This document shows, one piece after another, positions 23,846 to 41,484 of a DNA stretch of 43,213 nucleotides. The stretch lies in the NCBI GenBank assembly GCA_018397065.1, contig JAGTRI010000010.1, positions 1 to 43,213 on the forward strand, given 5' to 3'. Position 1 is the first letter of the stretch. The number at the start of each line of letters is the position of its first letter. Below the pieces are notes generated by a model. It was not told where the DNA came from and did not search any database. It saw nothing but the letters and a program-made list of their open reading frames with translations. The stretch comes from Candidatus Bathyarchaeota archaeon. Its GTDB lineage: Archaea > Thermoproteota > Bathyarchaeia > Bathyarchaeales > DTEX01. The position numbers and the translations under genes are program-made.

Positions 23846-25078
23846 CTAGATTCCGTGATGCTTGTTTATTTCTTCTTCGTACTGGCTTATTTTGCCTGAT
23901 TCTACGTCGTCAACTTTTACGGATTTTCGGGCGATTGACGACTCAATTAGCGCATATGCAGCTGCTAGGTCGCGCAGTCCTTCCTTTCCGCTTGTCTCCA
24001 TTTCTCTTCGTTCTTTTATGGCTTTTAGGAACTCAAGGGTTTCAAGAGCCATCGCGTCCTTTATGCCGAGTGGGAAAAACCTTTCCTTGGTTTCTTTTTT
24101 CGCTTGTTTTTCGAAAAGCTTGGTTATGTCCTCTTTTGTTCCGTCGTCTAATATGAGAGTGTTACCTTTTATGCATCCCTTTGTTCCATAGATTATTCTG
24201 GGTATTGCGAATGCTTCTCCATGTCCTCCCCAAGAGAAAAAGTGTTGTCCTACCGCCCCGTTCTTATATTTTAGTAAGCCGAAAAATGAGTCGTCAACGT
24301 CGCTTTCAATTTTTTCAATTATTTTTCCCGCTTCGTTTTTTGTAAATCTTTCTTTTTCTAGAATTTCAGTTGAGCTTAACACTTCGTCGATTTCGCCGCA
24401 TGTGTACCGTAGGAAGTCTAGCAGGTGAACTCCCACGTCTATTGTTGCTCCGCCTCCAGCAAGCATCTTTTTATGTCTCCATCCAGTTTCAGCTACTATT
24501 TTGTTTGGAGACCAGTAGCCTCCTATTGAGCCGCTGAGGGTGACTTGTACGTTGCCGATGTAACCTTGCTCGATTATCCATTTTGTTATTCTCACATCTT
24601 CGTAGTATCTTAGGTTCTCGGCGACGCCAAGTACGACGCCTTGTTTTTCAGCTGCTTCGACCATTTTGCGTGCTGCCTTTACGGTTAGGGCGAAGGGTTT
24701 CTCAACTAAGACGTGCTTTCCAGCTTCTATGCATTTTAGTGCTATTTCGTGGTGTGAGAAGACAGAGGTGTAGATTTCAACGGCATCTATGTTGGATTTT
24801 CGGAGCATTTCTTTATAATCACTGTAGGCTTCGACGTCTACGTCTTTTTGAAAGTCTGAAATGTAGATTGGGGGCCTGTTCATCGGATCTCCTGGAGGGC
24901 CAACGGGCTTGATTGGTGGAATTCCTTCTTTGGGGCTTAGGAACCTTTTTGCGTCTTCGATTTTTCGTGCTGATAGCGCTGTGATTCTGGCGTCTATGCC
25001 TTTTTCAATTAAGGCCTTGTATCCGTATAAGTGAGCGGGCATAATGTGGCCGCAGCCGATCAGTCCTACTTTTATCAT
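23846..25078 (-). CDS. Gfo/Idh/MocA family oxidoreductase
   Basis: Dehydrogenase of 410 residues. The Rossmann opening is MIKVGLIGCGHIMPAHLYGY, the EKP motif is VLVEKPFAL, then AENLRYYEDVRITKWIIEQG and GGGATIDVGVHLLDFLRY with the catalytic-site histidine. A loop rich in proline (GIPPIKPVGPPGDPMNRPPIY, about 55-75) is inserted after the third strand. Start ATG 25078 follows GAGAGGACTT, and the upstream ATG at 25093 is less suited. A minus-strand TATA at 25140-25131 gives it its own promoter. It is the first of four tightly spaced genes (with ROK, PIG-L, amidohydrolase). Confidence 0.9.
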   Translation of the reverse strand: MIKVGLIGCGHIMPAHLYGYKALIEKGIDARITALSARKIEDAKRFLSPKEGIPPIKPVGPPGDPMNRPPIYISDFQKDVDVEAYSDYKEMLRKSNIDAVEIYTSVFSHHEIALKCIEAGKHVLVEKPFALTVKAARKMVEAAEKQGVVLGVAENLRYYEDVRITKWIIEQGYIGNVQVTLSGSIGGYWSPNKIVAETGWRHKKMLAGGGATIDVGVHLLDFLRYTCGEIDEVLSSTEILEKERFTKNEAGKIIEKIESDVDDSFFGLLKYKNGAVGQHFFSWGGHGEAFAIPRIIYGTKGCIKGNTLILDDGTKEDITKLFEKQAKKETKERFFPLGIKDAMALETLEFLKAIKERREMETSGKEGLRDLAAAYALIESSIARKSVKVDDVESGKISQYEEEINKHHGI

Positions 25079-25130
25079 ATTAAGTCCTCTCATGAAAGGT
25101 TTTTTTGTATATGAATTATTCAGTTTTCTT

Positions 25131-25140
25131 TTTTATAAGT
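25131..25140 (-). promoter_or_regulatory. TATA box of the Gfo/Idh/MocA-ROK-PIG-L cluster
   Basis: ACTTATAAAA on the minus strand predicts a start near 25110 and a leader of about 30 nt with a Shine-Dalgarno. A second, stronger-looking TATA (CTATATATAAC, about 25267-25257) lies further upstream in the T/G-rich stretch. Confidence 0.5.
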
Positions 25141-25311
25141 TAACATTGGTTGCTTCTACTTCGGCATTATGTTTGTGTATTCTGGGTTTTGCAGTTTTGT
25201 CAAAGTTTTAGCGGTAGGGTCTCTTTTTGTGTGCATGTTGTTGAGGGGGAGGGGGGTTATATATAGTCTGGTCATCTTTTTTGGCCATTTTTGTGTTTTT
25301 TGGGTTATTTT

Positions 25312-26487
25312 TTATTCATATTTTCCGTATTGTTTGACTATTTTGTATGCGTAGTTGAGGTTTTCAGCTGGGGTGTTTGGGGCTACGTTGTTTCCTTCTC
25401 CGAACACAAATTTTTTCCCCAAGGTTACTTTGGATCTTATTATTTTCAGGGTTTCTTGTTTGATTTTTTGTTTTGGTCCTTCGTACAGTGTGGCTATGTG
25501 CAGGTTGCCTCTTATGATTACGTCTTCTCCTAGAATTTCTCGGGCTTTTTCGAGGTTCAGCGGAAAGCCTGTGTCAAGCCACCTTATGTGAAGTTCGTCT
25601 CTTAGTGTTTCGAGGTGCTGCTCCACTGCTCCGCAAAGGTGGATTCCGGGTCTTCCGATGCAGAAGGTTTCGACGATTTTTTTGTGAAGTGGAAGGACGA
25701 ATCTTGCGTATGCCTTCGGTGACAGGAGCTGTATGCAGTCGTCTGCGAAGCCGAAGCCTTTGTATGGGAAGCTGATGCCAATAAATTTGTGCCAAGCCTT
25801 CATTCTTTCAATCAATGCGTCTGTTACGAACCACAGAAAGTCCTGTGTAAACTCTGGGTCTTTGTAGAGGTGCCTCAGGATTTCTCCGCCTGTGATGTTA
25901 ACCGCGATTGTGAAGGGCCCATCTGTCCCCGTTGGCGTGCCTATGTTTCCAAGAGGCGCCCCTTTGAAGGTGAAGCCTTCGCTTCTTTTTTCCACAAAGT
26001 GTTCGTAGAACCTTTTCGCTTTAGCCATTAATCCTCCAAACGGGTCTGGAATTCCTTGAGCAACGAAGTTTTTCATTTCTTCTTTGGTTTTGAGAAAGGG
26101 TTTGACGTCTGGCACGTTCTTTTCCGTGAAGAGAATTGGTGCTCCAAGCCAGGCTGACTCGTAGACGTTTTGGAAGTGGACGCTTATGTCCCATTTTTTT
26201 GGAGTTCCCATCTCCCAATCGCACCAGACATTATGTCTCCGCCAATGCTCGAATTCAAGCTCAGCTCTAAGCATGACGTCTGGGTTTTCGAAGCATTCTT
26301 TGAAGGTGATGCCTGAAACGTTCAGAGATTGATTAAGAACAAACATTTTGTAGCTCATAGACCACTGGACGGGAATTCTACTTGGCTTTCCATCTTCTAG
26401 GTCTTTCCAGAGCTTCGCCACTTCCGCGTTGTGCTCTTCAAAATCCACGTTGCCTTTGCTTTGAGGATCCTTAGCCGATTTTTTCAT
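25312..26487 (-). CDS. uroporphyrinogen decarboxylase-family protein (MtaA/CmuA-like)
   Basis: 391-residue TIM-barrel protein of the URO-D superfamily. In archaea these are more often corrinoid or coenzyme-M methyltransferases than haem enzymes. The zinc-ligand motif HxC is present as GIHLCGAVEQH, followed by IRGNLHIATLYEGP and the C-terminal FGEGNNVAPNTPAENL. The arginine-rich porphyrin-binding N terminus of HemE is missing. It is preceded by an operator-like inverted repeat (26531-26550) and lies between a winged helix regulator and the sugar cluster, so it may act on a methylated sugar or other methylated substrate. ATG 26487 follows GGAG. No corrinoid protein is present in the window. Confidence 0.85.
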   Translation of the reverse strand: MKKSAKDPQSKGNVDFEEHNAEVAKLWKDLEDGKPSRIPVQWSMSYKMFVLNQSLNVSGITFKECFENPDVMLRAELEFEHWRRHNVWCDWEMGTPKKWDISVHFQNVYESAWLGAPILFTEKNVPDVKPFLKTKEEMKNFVAQGIPDPFGGLMAKAKRFYEHFVEKRSEGFTFKGAPLGNIGTPTGTDGPFTIAVNITGGEILRHLYKDPEFTQDFLWFVTDALIERMKAWHKFIGISFPYKGFGFADDCIQLLSPKAYARFVLPLHKKIVETFCIGRPGIHLCGAVEQHLETLRDELHIRWLDTGFPLNLEKAREILGEDVIIRGNLHIATLYEGPKQKIKQETLKIIRSKVTLGKKFVFGEGNNVAPNTPAENLNYAYKIVKQYGKYE

Positions 26488-26928: not shown

Positions 26929-27106
26929 CCTAAACACCTAGCAGATACCAATAACTAAAATACATAAAAGACAATGTGCGTAGCTCAACCACACACAAAA
27001 CAAACAGCAATATAGTCTCCAAAATGCTTAGACATATTTTTGGTTAAATTTAGAGGCGTTGTTGCCTTTTCTCTGTTCAACATCAGATTACGAAGGAATG
27101 AAAACT

Positions 27107-27116
27107 TCTATAAGGT
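27107..27116 (+). promoter_or_regulatory. TATA box of the nuclease-methyltransferase pair
   Basis: TTCTATAAGG centred near 27112 predicts a transcript start near 27138. AGGTG at 27138-27142 then lies 11 nt before ATG 27154. No operator-like repeat is apparent. Confidence 0.45.
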
Positions 27117-27153
27117 ATTTTTACGTTTTAGAATTGTAGGTGTAATGTTTTAG

Positions 27154-27759
27154 ATGAGCATAAGGGAAGAAAATCTGAATGTAATGTTGTCTGAGCTTTT
27201 AACAGAGAAGGGGCTTAAGGCTTTAGGAGAAGTTATTATAAGGAAAAGGAAGGGGCGGTTTGAGCCTGATGTCTTGATAGAGCTTAATGGTGTTCGTATA
27301 GTTATAGAGGGAAAAAAGGCTGGCTTATGGAATGAGTTGGTTGAGATTTGCCAGAACAGGTTGGATAATAACGTTTGCGACTTATGCATGATGGTTGAGT
27401 ACGTTGATTGTAAAGTTAGTACTCTTTCTCCTAATCAAGCTGACATAAAGGATGCTCTTCTTCGAGGTAGATTTAACGTTGGCTTTTTATCATACATTGA
27501 TAGGGCTGGTCTAGACAAGTGGACTGGTGTCGCATCTAAGCCAGAGCAATACATGGATGTTGGTTTTGATGACCTATTGACCTATTTGATGAGCGTCTAC
27601 AGCAGGGTGGTCAGCACGGATATCATAAATCCTGTCATAAAAAAGATGAATGAAGTTTTGACCGATTTTTCGACTAAACTATCCTCTACGGTTAACATTG
27701 AGCGTCTGAAAGACGTGTTAGAGTTGAAAGAAACAGGGGAAGAGGAAGATGGGGAGTAA
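27154..27759 (+). CDS. PD-(D/E)XK nuclease-like protein, partner of an adenine methyltransferase
   Basis: 201-residue protein with a restriction-nuclease-like active site: P38-D39 in RFEPDVLIELNG, then the E52-x-K54 of VIEGKK after a hydrophobic strand (VRIV). The N-terminal helix carries E6/E14, which could supply the remaining acidic ligand. The C-terminal half is helical (DLLTYLMSVYSRVVSTDIINPVIKKMNEVLTDF) and may contact the methyltransferase. The stop overlaps the next gene by 11 nt, showing translational coupling. A named family is not recognised. It has no helicase or DNA-binding domain of its own, so specificity must come from the partner. The active-site reading is by eye. Confidence 0.72.
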   Translation: MSIREENLNVMLSELLTEKGLKALGEVIIRKRKGRFEPDVLIELNGVRIVIEGKKAGLWNELVEICQNRLDNNVCDLCMMVEYVDCKVSTLSPNQADIKDALLRGRFNVGFLSYIDRAGLDKWTGVASKPEQYMDVGFDDLLTYLMSVYSRVVSTDIINPVIKKMNEVLTDFSTKLSSTVNIERLKDVLELKETGEEEDGE

Positions 27760-30013
27760 GGAAGATACTCATAAGTTAATTTCAACTGCTGGTCTTTTAC
27801 TCGTTGATGCTTTGGTTTTTCATGAGATTATTGCTGCCCTTCATAAAAAGGTGCCCACGCTTTCGATGTTGTTAAGCTCTTCGAATCTTAAGAAGGAGCT
27901 GGAAAATTCTTGGCAGTATATAATTGACGAAATTAACTACGAACCTGTTTTGGATATAACTTTGAGTATTATTAGGAACATCCCTGCTAGTCCTGTGGTG
28001 GATGAACAGCTTAGATTGCTTGGGAATCTAGCATACGACATAGCTTCTTCAAAAGTTTTGTTGAAGCATGATTTGTTTGGCCGAATTTATCACAGGCTAC
28101 TCTTGGGAAACCTTGTAAAGTATCATGCAACTTATTATACGTCGATACCTGCTGCTCGGTTATTAGCCAGACTTTTGATAAATCTTCCTTCAAGTTTGGA
28201 TGCTGAGAAGGTTCCACCTGTTTATGGAGATGAGCCTTTTCGGGTTGTTGATTTTGCATGCGGGTCTGGTACGCTTCTTTCAGCTGTATACAAGGAGTTG
28301 GATGCTAAACACAGGATTGAAAGTGAACAAGTTAGGGTAGATGACTTACACAGGTATTTGATTGAGGAGGGGATCTGGGGATTCGATGTGCTTCATCACG
28401 CTATCCACTTGGCAGCAACCGTCTTGTCTCTTCATAACCCTATTCCGGTTAAGGCTTCAAGGCTGTTTGCCCTAAGGTTGGGTGAATCTAAGTATTTAGG
28501 CAGCGTTAACTTTTTGGATTCGCCAAACATTGGGCAGGGTATGTTGCTTACAGGAGCGGTGAGGGCGGAGGGTGAATCTGTAAGTGTCTCTCGGCGAGAA
28601 GCCCAGACAATTGCTCTTCCTAACTTTCATGTTTGCATAATGAATCCTCCGTTTACGAGGAGTGTTGGCGGAAATCTTTTGTTTGGTTCGTTGCCTAAAA
28701 AAGACCGAGCTTCACTTCAAAGGACGCTTGGGCAACTACTTAGAGAAAAGGGGCTTTCTGGCATAGGTCAAGCTGGCCTTGGAGCGGTTTTTGTTTTTGT
28801 TGCTGACAAGTATCTTGTGAATAATGGCAGAATGGGGCTTGTTTTGCCCAGAGCAGTTTTATCTGGTGTTTCTTGGCAGAAAGTCCGGGACAAGCTCTTA
28901 AAAGATTATCATGTTGAGTACATAATTACTAGCTATGAGGTTAACAACCAGTGGAATTTTAGCGAGAACACTGACCTAAGCGAGGTTCTTCTTGTCGCAA
29001 GAAAGATATGCAATGATGATTCTCGGTATACGTTTTTTGTTAATTTGTGGAAGAAGCCTTCAAACGAGTTGGAATCCATTTATCTGGGTACTCAGCTTAA
29101 ACAGCTTTATGGCAGCGCTAAGCTTTATGACGTAGAAAACTCGAATGCTTCTCCATATCATCTGAAGCTACATGGAAAGAAGATTGGTGAAGTCTATTCC
29201 GCAAAACTTACAGAAAACAACTTCGGCGTCTTCAACATTTTTTCTCAGATGGAACTTAACAGGGTAATGCTCTTTCTCAGAAAAGGCATAGTGTATCTTC
29301 CAGATAAGGGAATCGTCGGAAACATACGTCTATCAACACTATCAAAACTAAAAGCTGAAATCGGACCAGATGTGAGACAGGTTCATGCAACCTTTAGGGT
29401 TAGCAACACTGCAGCTGGCTCTATTTATAAAGCATTTTGGGGCTACGATTCAAGCATAACCAAAACAATCTTACAATCGCCAAATGCATATTTGGAACCT
29501 AAGAATGCCGGGCAAGCACGTGAACTGTGGAATAAACGCGGGAGACTATTGATAGTGGAAAGAGCTTGGTTAAGCACTTACACCGTGTTGGCGACATACT
29601 TAGATGAAGAAGTCCTGTCTAATGTTTGGTGGCCGGTCAAGGTTGACGAGGAAACCGCAAAGGTCTTAGTGATTTGGCTTAACTCGACTTTCGGTATTTT
29701 ATTGTTATTGTCAATTGCAGAAGTAACTCGAGGACCTTGGGTAAAGTTCAAAAAGGATCATCTTTGGGATATGCCCATATTGGATGTTAATAGAATAGGG
29801 CGAAAAGCGTTTAACAAGCTTCTAGGCTTATATGACGAGGAATTTCGTGGAAAAAGGGTTTACGAACTGCCTTTGAAAGCTCTTCCTAAAGAGTTTGCCG
29901 AACCATTTGCGAGAAAAATCATTGATGACAAAATTTGCAACGCTTTAGGCTTTGAGTTCAAATTAGATGCACTTTACGAGCTACTCTCAAAAGAACCAAT
30001 GCTGACCGGATAA
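27749..30013 (+). CDS. N6-adenine DNA methyltransferase of type I/IIG style
   Basis: 754-residue SAM-dependent DNA methyltransferase. The N-terminal helical region (about 1-160) ends in the pre-motif GRIYHRLLLGNLVKYHATYYTS. Motif I is VVDFACGSGTL (167-177) and motif IV is CIMNPPFTRS (296-305), giving the order of gamma-class N6-adenine enzymes. Later come FVFVADKYLVNNGRMGLVLPRAVL and a C-terminal domain (about 480-754) with SPNAYLEPKNAG and NSTFGILLLLSIAEVTRGPWVKF. This domain is probably the target-recognition part, as in type IIG enzymes. No separate HsdS-like subunit and no HsdR helicase flanks it. It starts at ATG 27749 after a purine-rich stretch inside the nuclease gene. Confidence 0.88.
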   Translation: MGSKEDTHKLISTAGLLLVDALVFHEIIAALHKKVPTLSMLLSSSNLKKELENSWQYIIDEINYEPVLDITLSIIRNIPASPVVDEQLRLLGNLAYDIASSKVLLKHDLFGRIYHRLLLGNLVKYHATYYTSIPAARLLARLLINLPSSLDAEKVPPVYGDEPFRVVDFACGSGTLLSAVYKELDAKHRIESEQVRVDDLHRYLIEEGIWGFDVLHHAIHLAATVLSLHNPIPVKASRLFALRLGESKYLGSVNFLDSPNIGQGMLLTGAVRAEGESVSVSRREAQTIALPNFHVCIMNPPFTRSVGGNLLFGSLPKKDRASLQRTLGQLLREKGLSGIGQAGLGAVFVFVADKYLVNNGRMGLVLPRAVLSGVSWQKVRDKLLKDYHVEYIITSYEVNNQWNFSENTDLSEVLLVARKICNDDSRYTFFVNLWKKPSNELESIYLGTQLKQLYGSAKLYDVENSNASPYHLKLHGKKIGEVYSAKLTENNFGVFNIFSQMELNRVMLFLRKGIVYLPDKGIVGNIRLSTLSKLKAEIGPDVRQVHATFRVSNTAAGSIYKAFWGYDSSITKTILQSPNAYLEPKNAGQARELWNKRGRLLIVERAWLSTYTVLATYLDEEVLSNVWWPVKVDEETAKVLVIWLNSTFGILLLLSIAEVTRGPWVKFKKDHLWDMPILDVNRIGRKAFNKLLGLYDEEFRGKRVYELPLKALPKEFAEPFARKIIDDKICNALGFEFKLDALYELLSKEPMLTG

Positions 30014-36673: not shown

Positions 36674-37822
36674 TTAACCTAATTTCGGCTTATGAAATTT
36701 GTGATGTTGCCCATATTTCAAGCCGCAGTCAATGTAGTGCAAAATATTTTGTTGAATTTTTCTCTTTAAAGGAGTTGTAATCGGCATCGCAGTTGGGCAA
36801 AGAACAAAGCCTCCAGAATATGCTGCTTGACTGATTGCCTTCTTAACCTGGTTTTCTATGTCCTTTTTACTTCCAACTTCAAAAAGTCTCTCCTCAATGT
36901 TTCCTATAAGCACTGTTTCGGCTCCAAGAATCCTTCTAGCTTCATCAAGCTCTACATCCCCATCTGGAGGAGGCTCCAAAGGATCAACCGCGTCAACGCC
37001 GAGATCCTTAATCGCAGGCAAAACTTTTTTCACCTTACCGTGCGAATGAAGCCTCGCGTAGCCACCGTGTTTGTGAAGCAAGTTAACAAGGTCCAGATCG
37101 TAGAAATTCACAAGTTTATCAAACTCCTTTGGATGCAGATAAGGAGGAGTCGCGTATTCAGGACCGCAAATACGGTACAGTGTAACTGCACCACTTTTGA
37201 GAAGATGTTCAAGGTAGTTACGTATCCGCTCATGAAAGAAGTCCATAAGCTCAAACACAAGAGGCTTGTTGCGCAAATAGACATTTAGAAACCTTGACAA
37301 GCCAAATAGCTCAACAGTTAAACAAAGCGCATCTGGAATGTCGCCCATCAAAATCCCAGCCTCCCCTAACAAACGATTGAGCCTAAAAAACGAGTCTATA
37401 CTTGGACGCCATGGCTCATAGGGCAGAGACAAAATCTTTCTGGCATCATCCTCACTTTCGCAGAACGGCTTAATAGTCCAAGACGTGTGTATGCCCTTAT
37501 CTTGTCTAGCAAGAGTTGAAACAACGCCCTTAGGTGTCGTTACCTCGGTTCTCGTATAAGTTGAGCTCTTTTCGTGCCAAGTTTCAGTTTTGATGCTGTC
37601 TTTGTCGACCAAGCTGTAAAAAAGCACGGGTTTATCATCCGAAGGTGCCCAAAAAAACATTTTATCCGTTTTTCCTTCCGCATACTTTAAGATGGCAACG
37701 TACTCTGGATGTTCGTGTATCCAGCTTTCGTAGAACCCATCGAACTCGTAAAGAGAAATGGGAACCCTGTCTGGAGTTTCGCCTCGAAGAACCATCATGA
37801 GACGCTCTCGACTGCTAGGCAA
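36674..37822 (-). CDS. uroporphyrinogen decarboxylase-family protein, altered zinc motif
   Basis: 382-residue URO-D superfamily protein. It opens with the family element SSRERLMMVLRGETPDRVPISLYEFD and ends with FVLCPTAMPITTPLK and the helix ILHYIDCGLKYG. The usual HxC zinc-ligand stretch reads ARLHSHGKVKKVLPAIKDLG, so the cysteine is replaced by histidine. This makes a classical coenzyme-M or corrinoid methyltransfer role uncertain. The TTG at 37822 follows GGAG. It is on the same strand as the sugar isomerase 153 nt downstream. A demethylation of sugar or aromatic substrates is possible, but no partner genes prove it. Confidence 0.82.
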   Translation of the reverse strand: MPSSRERLMMVLRGETPDRVPISLYEFDGFYESWIHEHPEYVAILKYAEGKTDKMFFWAPSDDKPVLFYSLVDKDSIKTETWHEKSSTYTRTEVTTPKGVVSTLARQDKGIHTSWTIKPFCESEDDARKILSLPYEPWRPSIDSFFRLNRLLGEAGILMGDIPDALCLTVELFGLSRFLNVYLRNKPLVFELMDFFHERIRNYLEHLLKSGAVTLYRICGPEYATPPYLHPKEFDKLVNFYDLDLVNLLHKHGGYARLHSHGKVKKVLPAIKDLGVDAVDPLEPPPDGDVELDEARRILGAETVLIGNIEERLFEVGSKKDIENQVKKAISQAAYSGGFVLCPTAMPITTPLKRKIQQNILHYIDCGLKYGQHHKFHKPKLG

Positions 37823-40443: not shown

Positions 40444-41484
40444 CTAAATACCATGTAGGCAAAATTCATCTAAAGCCTCGCATAGAGCCTTAATATTTTC
40501 AAAAGGAACATCGTCTGTAATCCAGCCCCAAACCATTAATCCTCCCTCTGGCAAAGAAAGAGTTTCAACTGTTTCTTTCACGTGTCTTTTAACATCTTCA
40601 GGACTGCAAAAAGGAAACATTTGCCTATCTAAATCTATGTCAATACACAGTCTTCCTTTGTAATATTTCTCTATGCCTTTCAGCGTGTTTGCTCGAATTT
40701 GGGGATTGTGGACAGAAACTCCGCATTCAATCAGGTCATCAACTATGTCTAGAAGACGACCATCAGATGAAAAATAAACATGTGCTCCAGCATTCCTGCA
40801 AGTCATGAAAATCTCTTTGAACATAGGTTTAATATACTTTCGGAACTTCGCTGGGCTGATCATTAGACCATTTTGTGTTCCCATATCACTATGAAAACTT
40901 ATTATGTCAACCCCAATTTCAAGCCACTTCTTCACAAGTTTCATCTCATAATCTAAAAGCATGTTTATCAATCTTGACAAATTGGGATTGTCAGTGACGA
41001 TGTCGACCATAAGATTCTCGAAACCCCTCAGAAAGTATAGACGGTCAAAGAGGCGTTCTCCATCCCCACCGACTAGTAGACCCTGCTTTCTTCGTTGCTC
41101 AACATCTTCCCTTATTTTTTCCCAGTCCCTTTCTCCTCTTTCAGTTTTTGTTAAAAAATCTGGTGGTTGATAGGTTTCAAATTTTTTCCAATCTGCCAGT
41201 GGATGTTCCACTATCTGCCCTTCGTACCCATCCTTAACATTGTACCAAAGGCATCCCCAGTTATCACGGAAATACTCGCCTTCCCTGTAGACAGGAGGAA
41301 AATTGTTGCCGAGTCTACGCAGTTCATCAGCATTCTTAAACAATATGGGATATCGGGAAAAGAGTTTATCTAGTTTTTCGCGATGCCTTTTCCAAGCAGC
41401 GTAAGATATGTATACTCGGCATGGGATCCATTCAGGATATCGAAACTCCACGGCCCTAAGATAGTTTTCTCGTTCTGTTACCAC
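40444..41484 (-). CDS. uroporphyrinogen decarboxylase-family protein, zinc motif lost
   Basis: 346-residue URO-D superfamily protein. It starts at GTG 41484 with TERENYLRAVEFRYPEWIPCRVYIS, and has the barrel elements GGDGERLFDRLYFLRGFENLM and DIISFHSDMGTQNGLMISPAKFRKYIKP. At the zinc-ligand position it reads HVYFSSDGRLLDIVDDLI, so both usual metal ligands of the HxC motif are gone. Its substrate must differ from that of methyltransferase paralogues. It is divergent from the dihydroorotate-dehydrogenase-like gene over 156 bp, an arrangement that hints at a joint pathway. Confidence 0.85.
   Translation of the reverse strand: MVTERENYLRAVEFRYPEWIPCRVYISYAAWKRHREKLDKLFSRYPILFKNADELRRLGNNFPPVYREGEYFRDNWGCLWYNVKDGYEGQIVEHPLADWKKFETYQPPDFLTKTERGERDWEKIREDVEQRRKQGLLVGGDGERLFDRLYFLRGFENLMVDIVTDNPNLSRLINMLLDYEMKLVKKWLEIGVDIISFHSDMGTQNGLMISPAKFRKYIKPMFKEIFMTCRNAGAHVYFSSDGRLLDIVDDLIECGVSVHNPQIRANTLKGIEKYYKGRLCIDIDLDRQMFPFCSPEDVKRHVKETVETLSLPEGGLMVWGWITDDVPFENIKALCEALDEFCLHGI

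Follow-up and report, generated by a model that had tools for sequence, protein, structure and literature searches.

What a 201-residue nuclease of no named family does beside an adenine methyltransferase, and whether the two proteins work as a single restriction enzyme, is the question raised by a locus in a 43,213-nucleotide stretch of DNA from a Candidatus Bathyarchaeota archaeon (the whole stretch is hereafter called the window). The host genome is represented by 1.2 Mb in 46 contigs (71.6% complete), and the nearest named relatives of the locus are themselves Candidatus Bathyarchaeota. We put the probability at about 0.85 that the pair is a two-subunit, type IIG-like restriction–modification system, in which target recognition would reside in the C terminus of the methyltransferase and a dissociable nuclease would cut unmethylated sites (complex, target and cleavage are what we infer). 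The features of the locus are listed in Table 1.

Table 1 Features of the nuclease–methyltransferase locus (positions in the window)
Feature	Position	Strand	Basis
Nuclease (R) subunit gene, PD-(D/E)XK core and C-terminal helices, 201 aa	27154..27759	+	ORF; AlphaFold2; Foldseek; hhalign
R4-E5-E6, N-terminal helix of the nuclease	27163..27171	+	E6 nearly invariant; residue 5 switches E/Q with residue 54
P38-D39, catalytic centre	27265..27270	+	D39 invariant in 77 sequences
E52-G53-K54, catalytic centre	27307..27315	+	E52 invariant; alignment of 77
Gene junction	27742..27759	+	Sequence; junctions of split relatives
Gamma-class N6-adenine methyltransferase with target-recognition C terminus (M~S subunit), 754 aa	27749..30013	+	Pfam; AlphaFold2; Foldseek
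N-terminal helical region, residues 1–120, proposed docking site	27749..28108	+	Secondary structure; fused alignment
Motif I, DFACGSGT (SAM binding)	28250..28273	+	Sequence
Motif IV, NPPF (adenine methylation)	28643..28654	+	Sequence
Likely target-recognition region, about residues 430–640, approximate boundaries	29036..29668	+	Windowed identity; fold match

Both open reading frames and their 11-nt overlap are as the preliminary description had them; the two frames differ, a Shine–Dalgarno-like GAGG (27742–27745) lies three bases upstream of the methyltransferase ATG (27749), and the stop codon of the nuclease gene occupies 27757–27759. In the proposed system, the two genes would be translationally coupled. 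Comparison between species shows purifying selection on both (pN approximately 0.15–0.2 versus pS approximately 0.7–0.86, with pS saturated in most pairs). Within the window, the locus is flanked by metabolic genes (among them URO-D-family, GFO/IDH/MocA oxidoreductase, nitroreductase and CoA-binding), and no HsdR- or HsdS-like or helicase–translocase neighbour of the kind that marks type I and type III systems was found there, in keeping with the earlier view that the unit has neither an HsdR helicase nor a separate HsdS subunit. Three URO-D-family (PF01208) proteins are encoded on the minus strand within 17 kb (25312–26487, 36674–37822 and 40444–41484) and are possibly corrinoid methyltransferase-type enzymes. 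An intergenic repeat of about 65–90 bp at 25222–25312, which contains GAGGGGGGTTATATATAG, has many further copies (76–90% identity), both in the remainder of this genome and in a sister species (G178).

The nuclease gave no significant match in Pfam, PADLOC, NCBIfam or PDB sequences, and just as the first reading of the locus had failed to recognise its family, no library searched here names it. Its AlphaFold2 model (77 sequences; pLDDT 87.8) has the secondary-structure order H-(H)-E-E-E-H-E, which is that of a PD-(D/E)XK core, and consists essentially of this catalytic core and C-terminal helices, with no obvious recognition insertion. The best PDB matches of the model in Foldseek were the archaeal resolvase ST1444 (9.4e-4, probability 1.00), Hjc/Hje and RecU-type enzymes; given that the TM-scores were modest (approximately 0.3–0.5), the search identifies the fold and not the function, and a PD-(D/E)XK fold is what had been predicted from the motif. 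A profile comparison (hhalign) with the N termini of five fused archaeal type IIG-like enzymes (960–1,020 aa) paired the two groups with a probability of 96.4 (E = 1.4e-9), the PD and E-x-K motifs falling in register. Loci L036, L037, L038, L039 and L040 encode a distinct set of fused type IIG-like enzymes from archaea (960–1,020 aa) with an N-terminal PD...E-x-K, and in L038 the E-x-K is replaced by SGK.

The residues to which the preliminary description had assigned the catalytic centre (P38-D39, E52 and K54) are all present, and the centre is not a product of chance because they recur in the 77 homologous nucleases: D39 and E52 are invariant, as are E26, G46, R69 and Y83, with P38 retained in 76 of the 77 and E6 in 75. 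The lysine is the part of that assignment that does not hold throughout, as residue 54 is K/R in 55 of the 77 homologues and E/D in the other 22. BamHI, too, has a glutamate where most such enzymes have lysine. The identity of residue 54 goes together with that of residue 5 (E5 with K/R54 in 54 rows, Q5 with E/D54 in 22), without exception in the 76 rows that have both. As the change from E5–K54 to Q5–E54 amounts to about four events on the tree, two of them on strongly supported branches, we regard this coupling as suggestive and not as statistically shown; no correlation was found between the switch and the split state described below.

The larger protein (METHYLTRANSFERASE; 754 aa) matches the Pfam families PF02384 (N6_Mtase, 1.7e-8) and PF07669 (Eco57I, 1.3e-5), and its AlphaFold2 model (pLDDT 88, pTM 0.89) has CamA (1.8e-16), BpuSI (2.6e-15) and M.BseCI (8.9e-14) as best PDB matches in Foldseek, with PglX/BrxX also among them. 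The motifs that had led to its being called a gamma-type N6-adenine methyltransferase are in place (FACGSGT at residues 169–175, NPPF at residues 299–302), Pfam and fold agree with that assignment, and the order of motif I, NPPF and C-terminal region is that of the gamma class. Over approximately 680 columns, the C-terminal half is matched to enzymes that bear target-recognition domains (TRDs). Sequence identity along the protein, calculated in windows, peaks in the catalytic stretches and drops at about residues 430–640, which are not hypervariable; such a drop is what would be expected of a recognition region; together with the fold similarity to CamA, BpuSI and M.BseCI, this supports the suggestion that the C-terminal half may read the target. 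Residues 1–120 are proposed as a docking site because it is here that fused relatives join the nuclease to the methyltransferase.

Whether the two proteins belong together can be judged from their relatives. A scan with the methyltransferase alignment, using one genome per species, found 156 relatives, of which 80 were kept. A nuclease profile placed the nuclease immediately upstream of the methyltransferase, or fused to it in frame, at 76 of these 80 loci, and at the other four (L051, L064, L075 and L112) the contig ends before the nuclease position; the linkage is obligate, that is, the pair is conserved together wherever the contig is long enough. A nuclease is present at 77 loci of the genome and viral sets together; the split form accounts for 35 of them and the fused form for 42 (two of the 77, L057 and L122, are frame-disrupted). 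The fused relatives carry the same two modules in one chain of approximately 940–1,000 aa, which bears out the preliminary description of the pair as a type IIG enzyme split into two proteins. Of the two outcomes that this description had named as refuting it, a nuclease model lacking the PD-(D/E)XK fold and a pair not kept together in related genomes, neither was obtained. All homologous loci in archaea are split (Bathyarchaeota, Brockarchaeota, Nitrososphaerales, Njordarchaeota and Ca. Benthortus); Chloroflexi, Planctomycetes and Deltaproteobacteria have both forms, most Proteobacteria and Acidobacteria have the fused form, and fused forms also occur on two plasmids; a plasmid protein of Aminobacter is one such natural fusion. 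On one Chloroflexi contig (JACAEN010000040.1), two apparently identical split systems stand in opposite orientation (L058 and L059), representing either an inverted duplication or an assembly artefact.

Clustering of the neighbours of 89 loci revealed no third conserved gene, the next commonest family being an ABC ATPase (14 of 89), and we therefore reject membership of a larger multi-gene system. A defence island is rejected as well, given that PADLOC hits were scarce to a similar degree close to the system (9 families among 80 proteins) and at a distance from it (12 among 80). A role in defence against phages or plasmids is plausible, with neighbours that are not enriched in defence genes.

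The fused and split states have interchanged repeatedly. At least eight changes of state are required on the methyltransferase tree (six to nine in 200 bootstrap trees), and six independent pairs lie on strongly supported branches; the tree gives the changes of state without the direction of each. At nearly all split loci, the start codon of the methyltransferase overlaps or closely adjoins the nuclease stop, a 4-nt overlap being the commonest arrangement. The relative frame of the two genes varies, the three possible offsets accounting for 20, 12 and 3 loci. Given these varying frames and the proper starts at the stop, the split loci consist of separate genes and do not reflect one shared frameshift, and programmed frameshifting is rejected as the origin of the split.

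In its parts, the pair resembles the type IIG (IIC) enzymes BpuSI, Eco57I and MmeI, which likewise combine a PD-(D/E)XK module of approximately 200 aa with a gamma-class N6-methyltransferase and have no helicase; their C-terminal recognition region has a putative counterpart in the pair. It differs from them in that R is a separate gene in the window and in all archaeal relatives, whereas a single chain (the form of 42 of the 77 loci) is part of the definition of type IIG (PMC4081073; PMC3874165; PMC10609329), and the published table of type IIG organisations lists no form with a separate R (PMC3874165, Table 4). The most economical account of the window pair is a type IIG-like system with R as a subunit of its own; as the pair is not one chain, we file it as a split relative of type IIG and not as a member. 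TkoI and TkoII of Thermococcus kodakarensis are, by description, also archaeal nuclease–methyltransferases with PD-ExK, and have NPPY and one-strand methylation; unlike the window pair, they are single chains of 1,282 and 1,125 aa (PMC8172983). HVO_A0006 of Haloferax volcanii is described as an isolated fragment flanked by transposition genes, and not part of a conserved operon with a methyltransferase (PMC4389544); the nuclease had no match to it in a plasmid collection at E 0.01, from which the plasmid that carries it may be missing. More distant are enzymes annotated as type IIG in tailed viruses of Halorubrum, HRTV-10 among them, which have 25–27% identity over residues 4–429 of the methyltransferase, that is, with about half of it aligned. 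CamA of Clostridioides difficile and M.BseCI are similar to the methyltransferase in fold at 12–15% sequence identity, and differ from it in that the window methyltransferase has a linked nuclease partner. The pair most probably represents a restriction system of a known kind in two parts, a form that occurs in archaea, in bacteria and on at least one virus-like contig.

The origin of single-chain type IIG enzymes is an open question that such a family addresses. A survey of 2,261 genomes for fusions of adjacent nucleases and methyltransferases found a resemblance to two-gene systems in only 0.9% of such systems and called these fusions rare (PMC4176335), and separation has been proposed to proceed solely via duplication and loss (PMC6158711). 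The present family has interconverted at least eight times, which allows a direct comparison between its fused and split members as to whether joining nuclease and methyltransferase changes specificity, toxicity or transfer. A detachable nuclease whose specificity comes from a partner protein would also be of practical interest, and for the Bathyarchaeia the locus provides a concrete restriction system that lends itself to testing; a relative of the pair lies on a virus-like contig.

In the mechanism that we propose, the 754-aa subunit would use its C-terminal recognition region to bind one particular DNA site and methylate adenine (N6) on host DNA. The 201-aa PD-(D/E)XK subunit, in which no recognition region is evident, would form a physical complex with it by docking on its helical N terminus (as deduced from the fusions only) and cut near unmethylated sites, probably at a fixed distance. 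Type IIG enzymes show SAM-stimulated cleavage at a fixed distance from the site, and a requirement for SAM is presumed here too. As each complex has one active site, two complexes would be needed to cut both strands. Such a system may protect the host against viruses and plasmids.

Loci at which the nuclease has outlived its partner bear on how far the two can be uncoupled. In two genomes of one genus, the nuclease (L031 in G154, L033 in G155) is present without the methyltransferase (METHYLTRANSFERASE): compared with G111, approximately 3.09 kb has gone from the interval that separates the nuclease from a uracil-DNA-glycosylase-like gene (named from sequence inspection), and as the start of the methyltransferase gene (ATGAGTAAGAGGG) is still there at the junction, the loss looks like a deletion. 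Neither genome (84% and 80% complete) yielded a further member of this methyltransferase family. Between them, the nuclease has a pN of 0.030 and a pS of 0.160, and the last codons are frameshifted in G155; these values argue that it was constrained for at least part of the time since the two diverged, which hints at another use for the orphan, apart from this methyltransferase. That an intact nuclease survives argues for its being innocuous by itself, which is what dependence on the methyltransferase for targeting would predict. One may go further and envisage a class of the form R + gammaM~S, in which the nuclease is dissociable, possibly exchangeable, and either fused, split or, as in G154 and G155, kept by itself under selection (in this last case to act in trans with another methyltransferase), its active site toggling between E5–K54 and Q5–E54; we consider this wider scheme rather unlikely.

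The orphans also bear on an alternative reading, in which the locus is an ordinary two-gene type II system of the classical type IIP design whose nuclease recognises its target independently of the methyltransferase, as TaqI does beside M.TaqI. This would suit the two-gene layout, small nucleases can be sequence-specific, and HincII appears weakly among the Foldseek matches of the nuclease. However, an autonomous specific cutter should have been lethal once the methyltransferase was deleted, unless another methyltransferase protects the site; the model of the nuclease lacks an obvious recognition insertion, and the same domain forms the N terminus of a single chain in more than half of the loci, with the repeated interchange described above; we judge this reading improbable. 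Slightly less credible still, and very improbable in our view, is an epigenetic or methylation-responsive pair akin to BREX or MADS that would serve mainly to methylate, with a nuclease that acts as a regulator or cleaves modified DNA. The best PADLOC hit of the methyltransferase is indeed mad2 (1.2e-9), and its fold matches include PglX/BrxX and the orphan methyltransferase CamA, yet its bit scores fall far below the curated cut-offs (MADS2, 26.8 against 720; BREX-5, 19.1 against 900; BREX-1, 16.4 against 500), no MADS or BREX partner genes are conserved nearby, and every contig that extends far enough shows the nuclease linked to it. That the window copy is a decaying, non-functional remnant is scarcely credible, given that its genes are intact, have all motifs and are under purifying selection relative to other species, even though the sister-species copy is frameshifted and truncated and other relatives have lost the methyltransferase.

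A two-subunit restriction–modification system of the kind preferred here would be a patchily distributed one, as the nuclease occurs in 9 of 257 genomes of the class. In the sister species G178, a copy that is 95–96% identical over window positions 27068–29304 has no shared flanks in the stretch examined, whereas positions 24500–25293 have 83% identity to another G178 contig; a copy so similar in a different context makes transfer likely. Frameshifts and a truncation have disrupted the copy in G178. In G214 (L034), a shortened nuclease remains without a methyltransferase, and in G211 an isolated 167-aa frame (L041:4507-5007) with 58% identity to the last 106 residues of the methyltransferase is probably a remnant.

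A split pair is also carried by a virus-like contig (L123), the methyltransferase of which is 55% identical to that of the window; the nuclease had no match among phage records. The gene order of this contig (L123:4283-15092) is terminase large subunit, ABC-type ATPase, nuclease, methyltransferase and archaeal-type integrase. The genome that contains the window has further matches to DNA methyltransferase families (G000:C4:4668-5576, G000:C12:69237-69884, G000:C3:7402-8052 and G000:C7:22996-23811), and a 1,026-aa frame with an N6_Mtase domain on its contig C4 may encode another fused type IIG-like enzyme.
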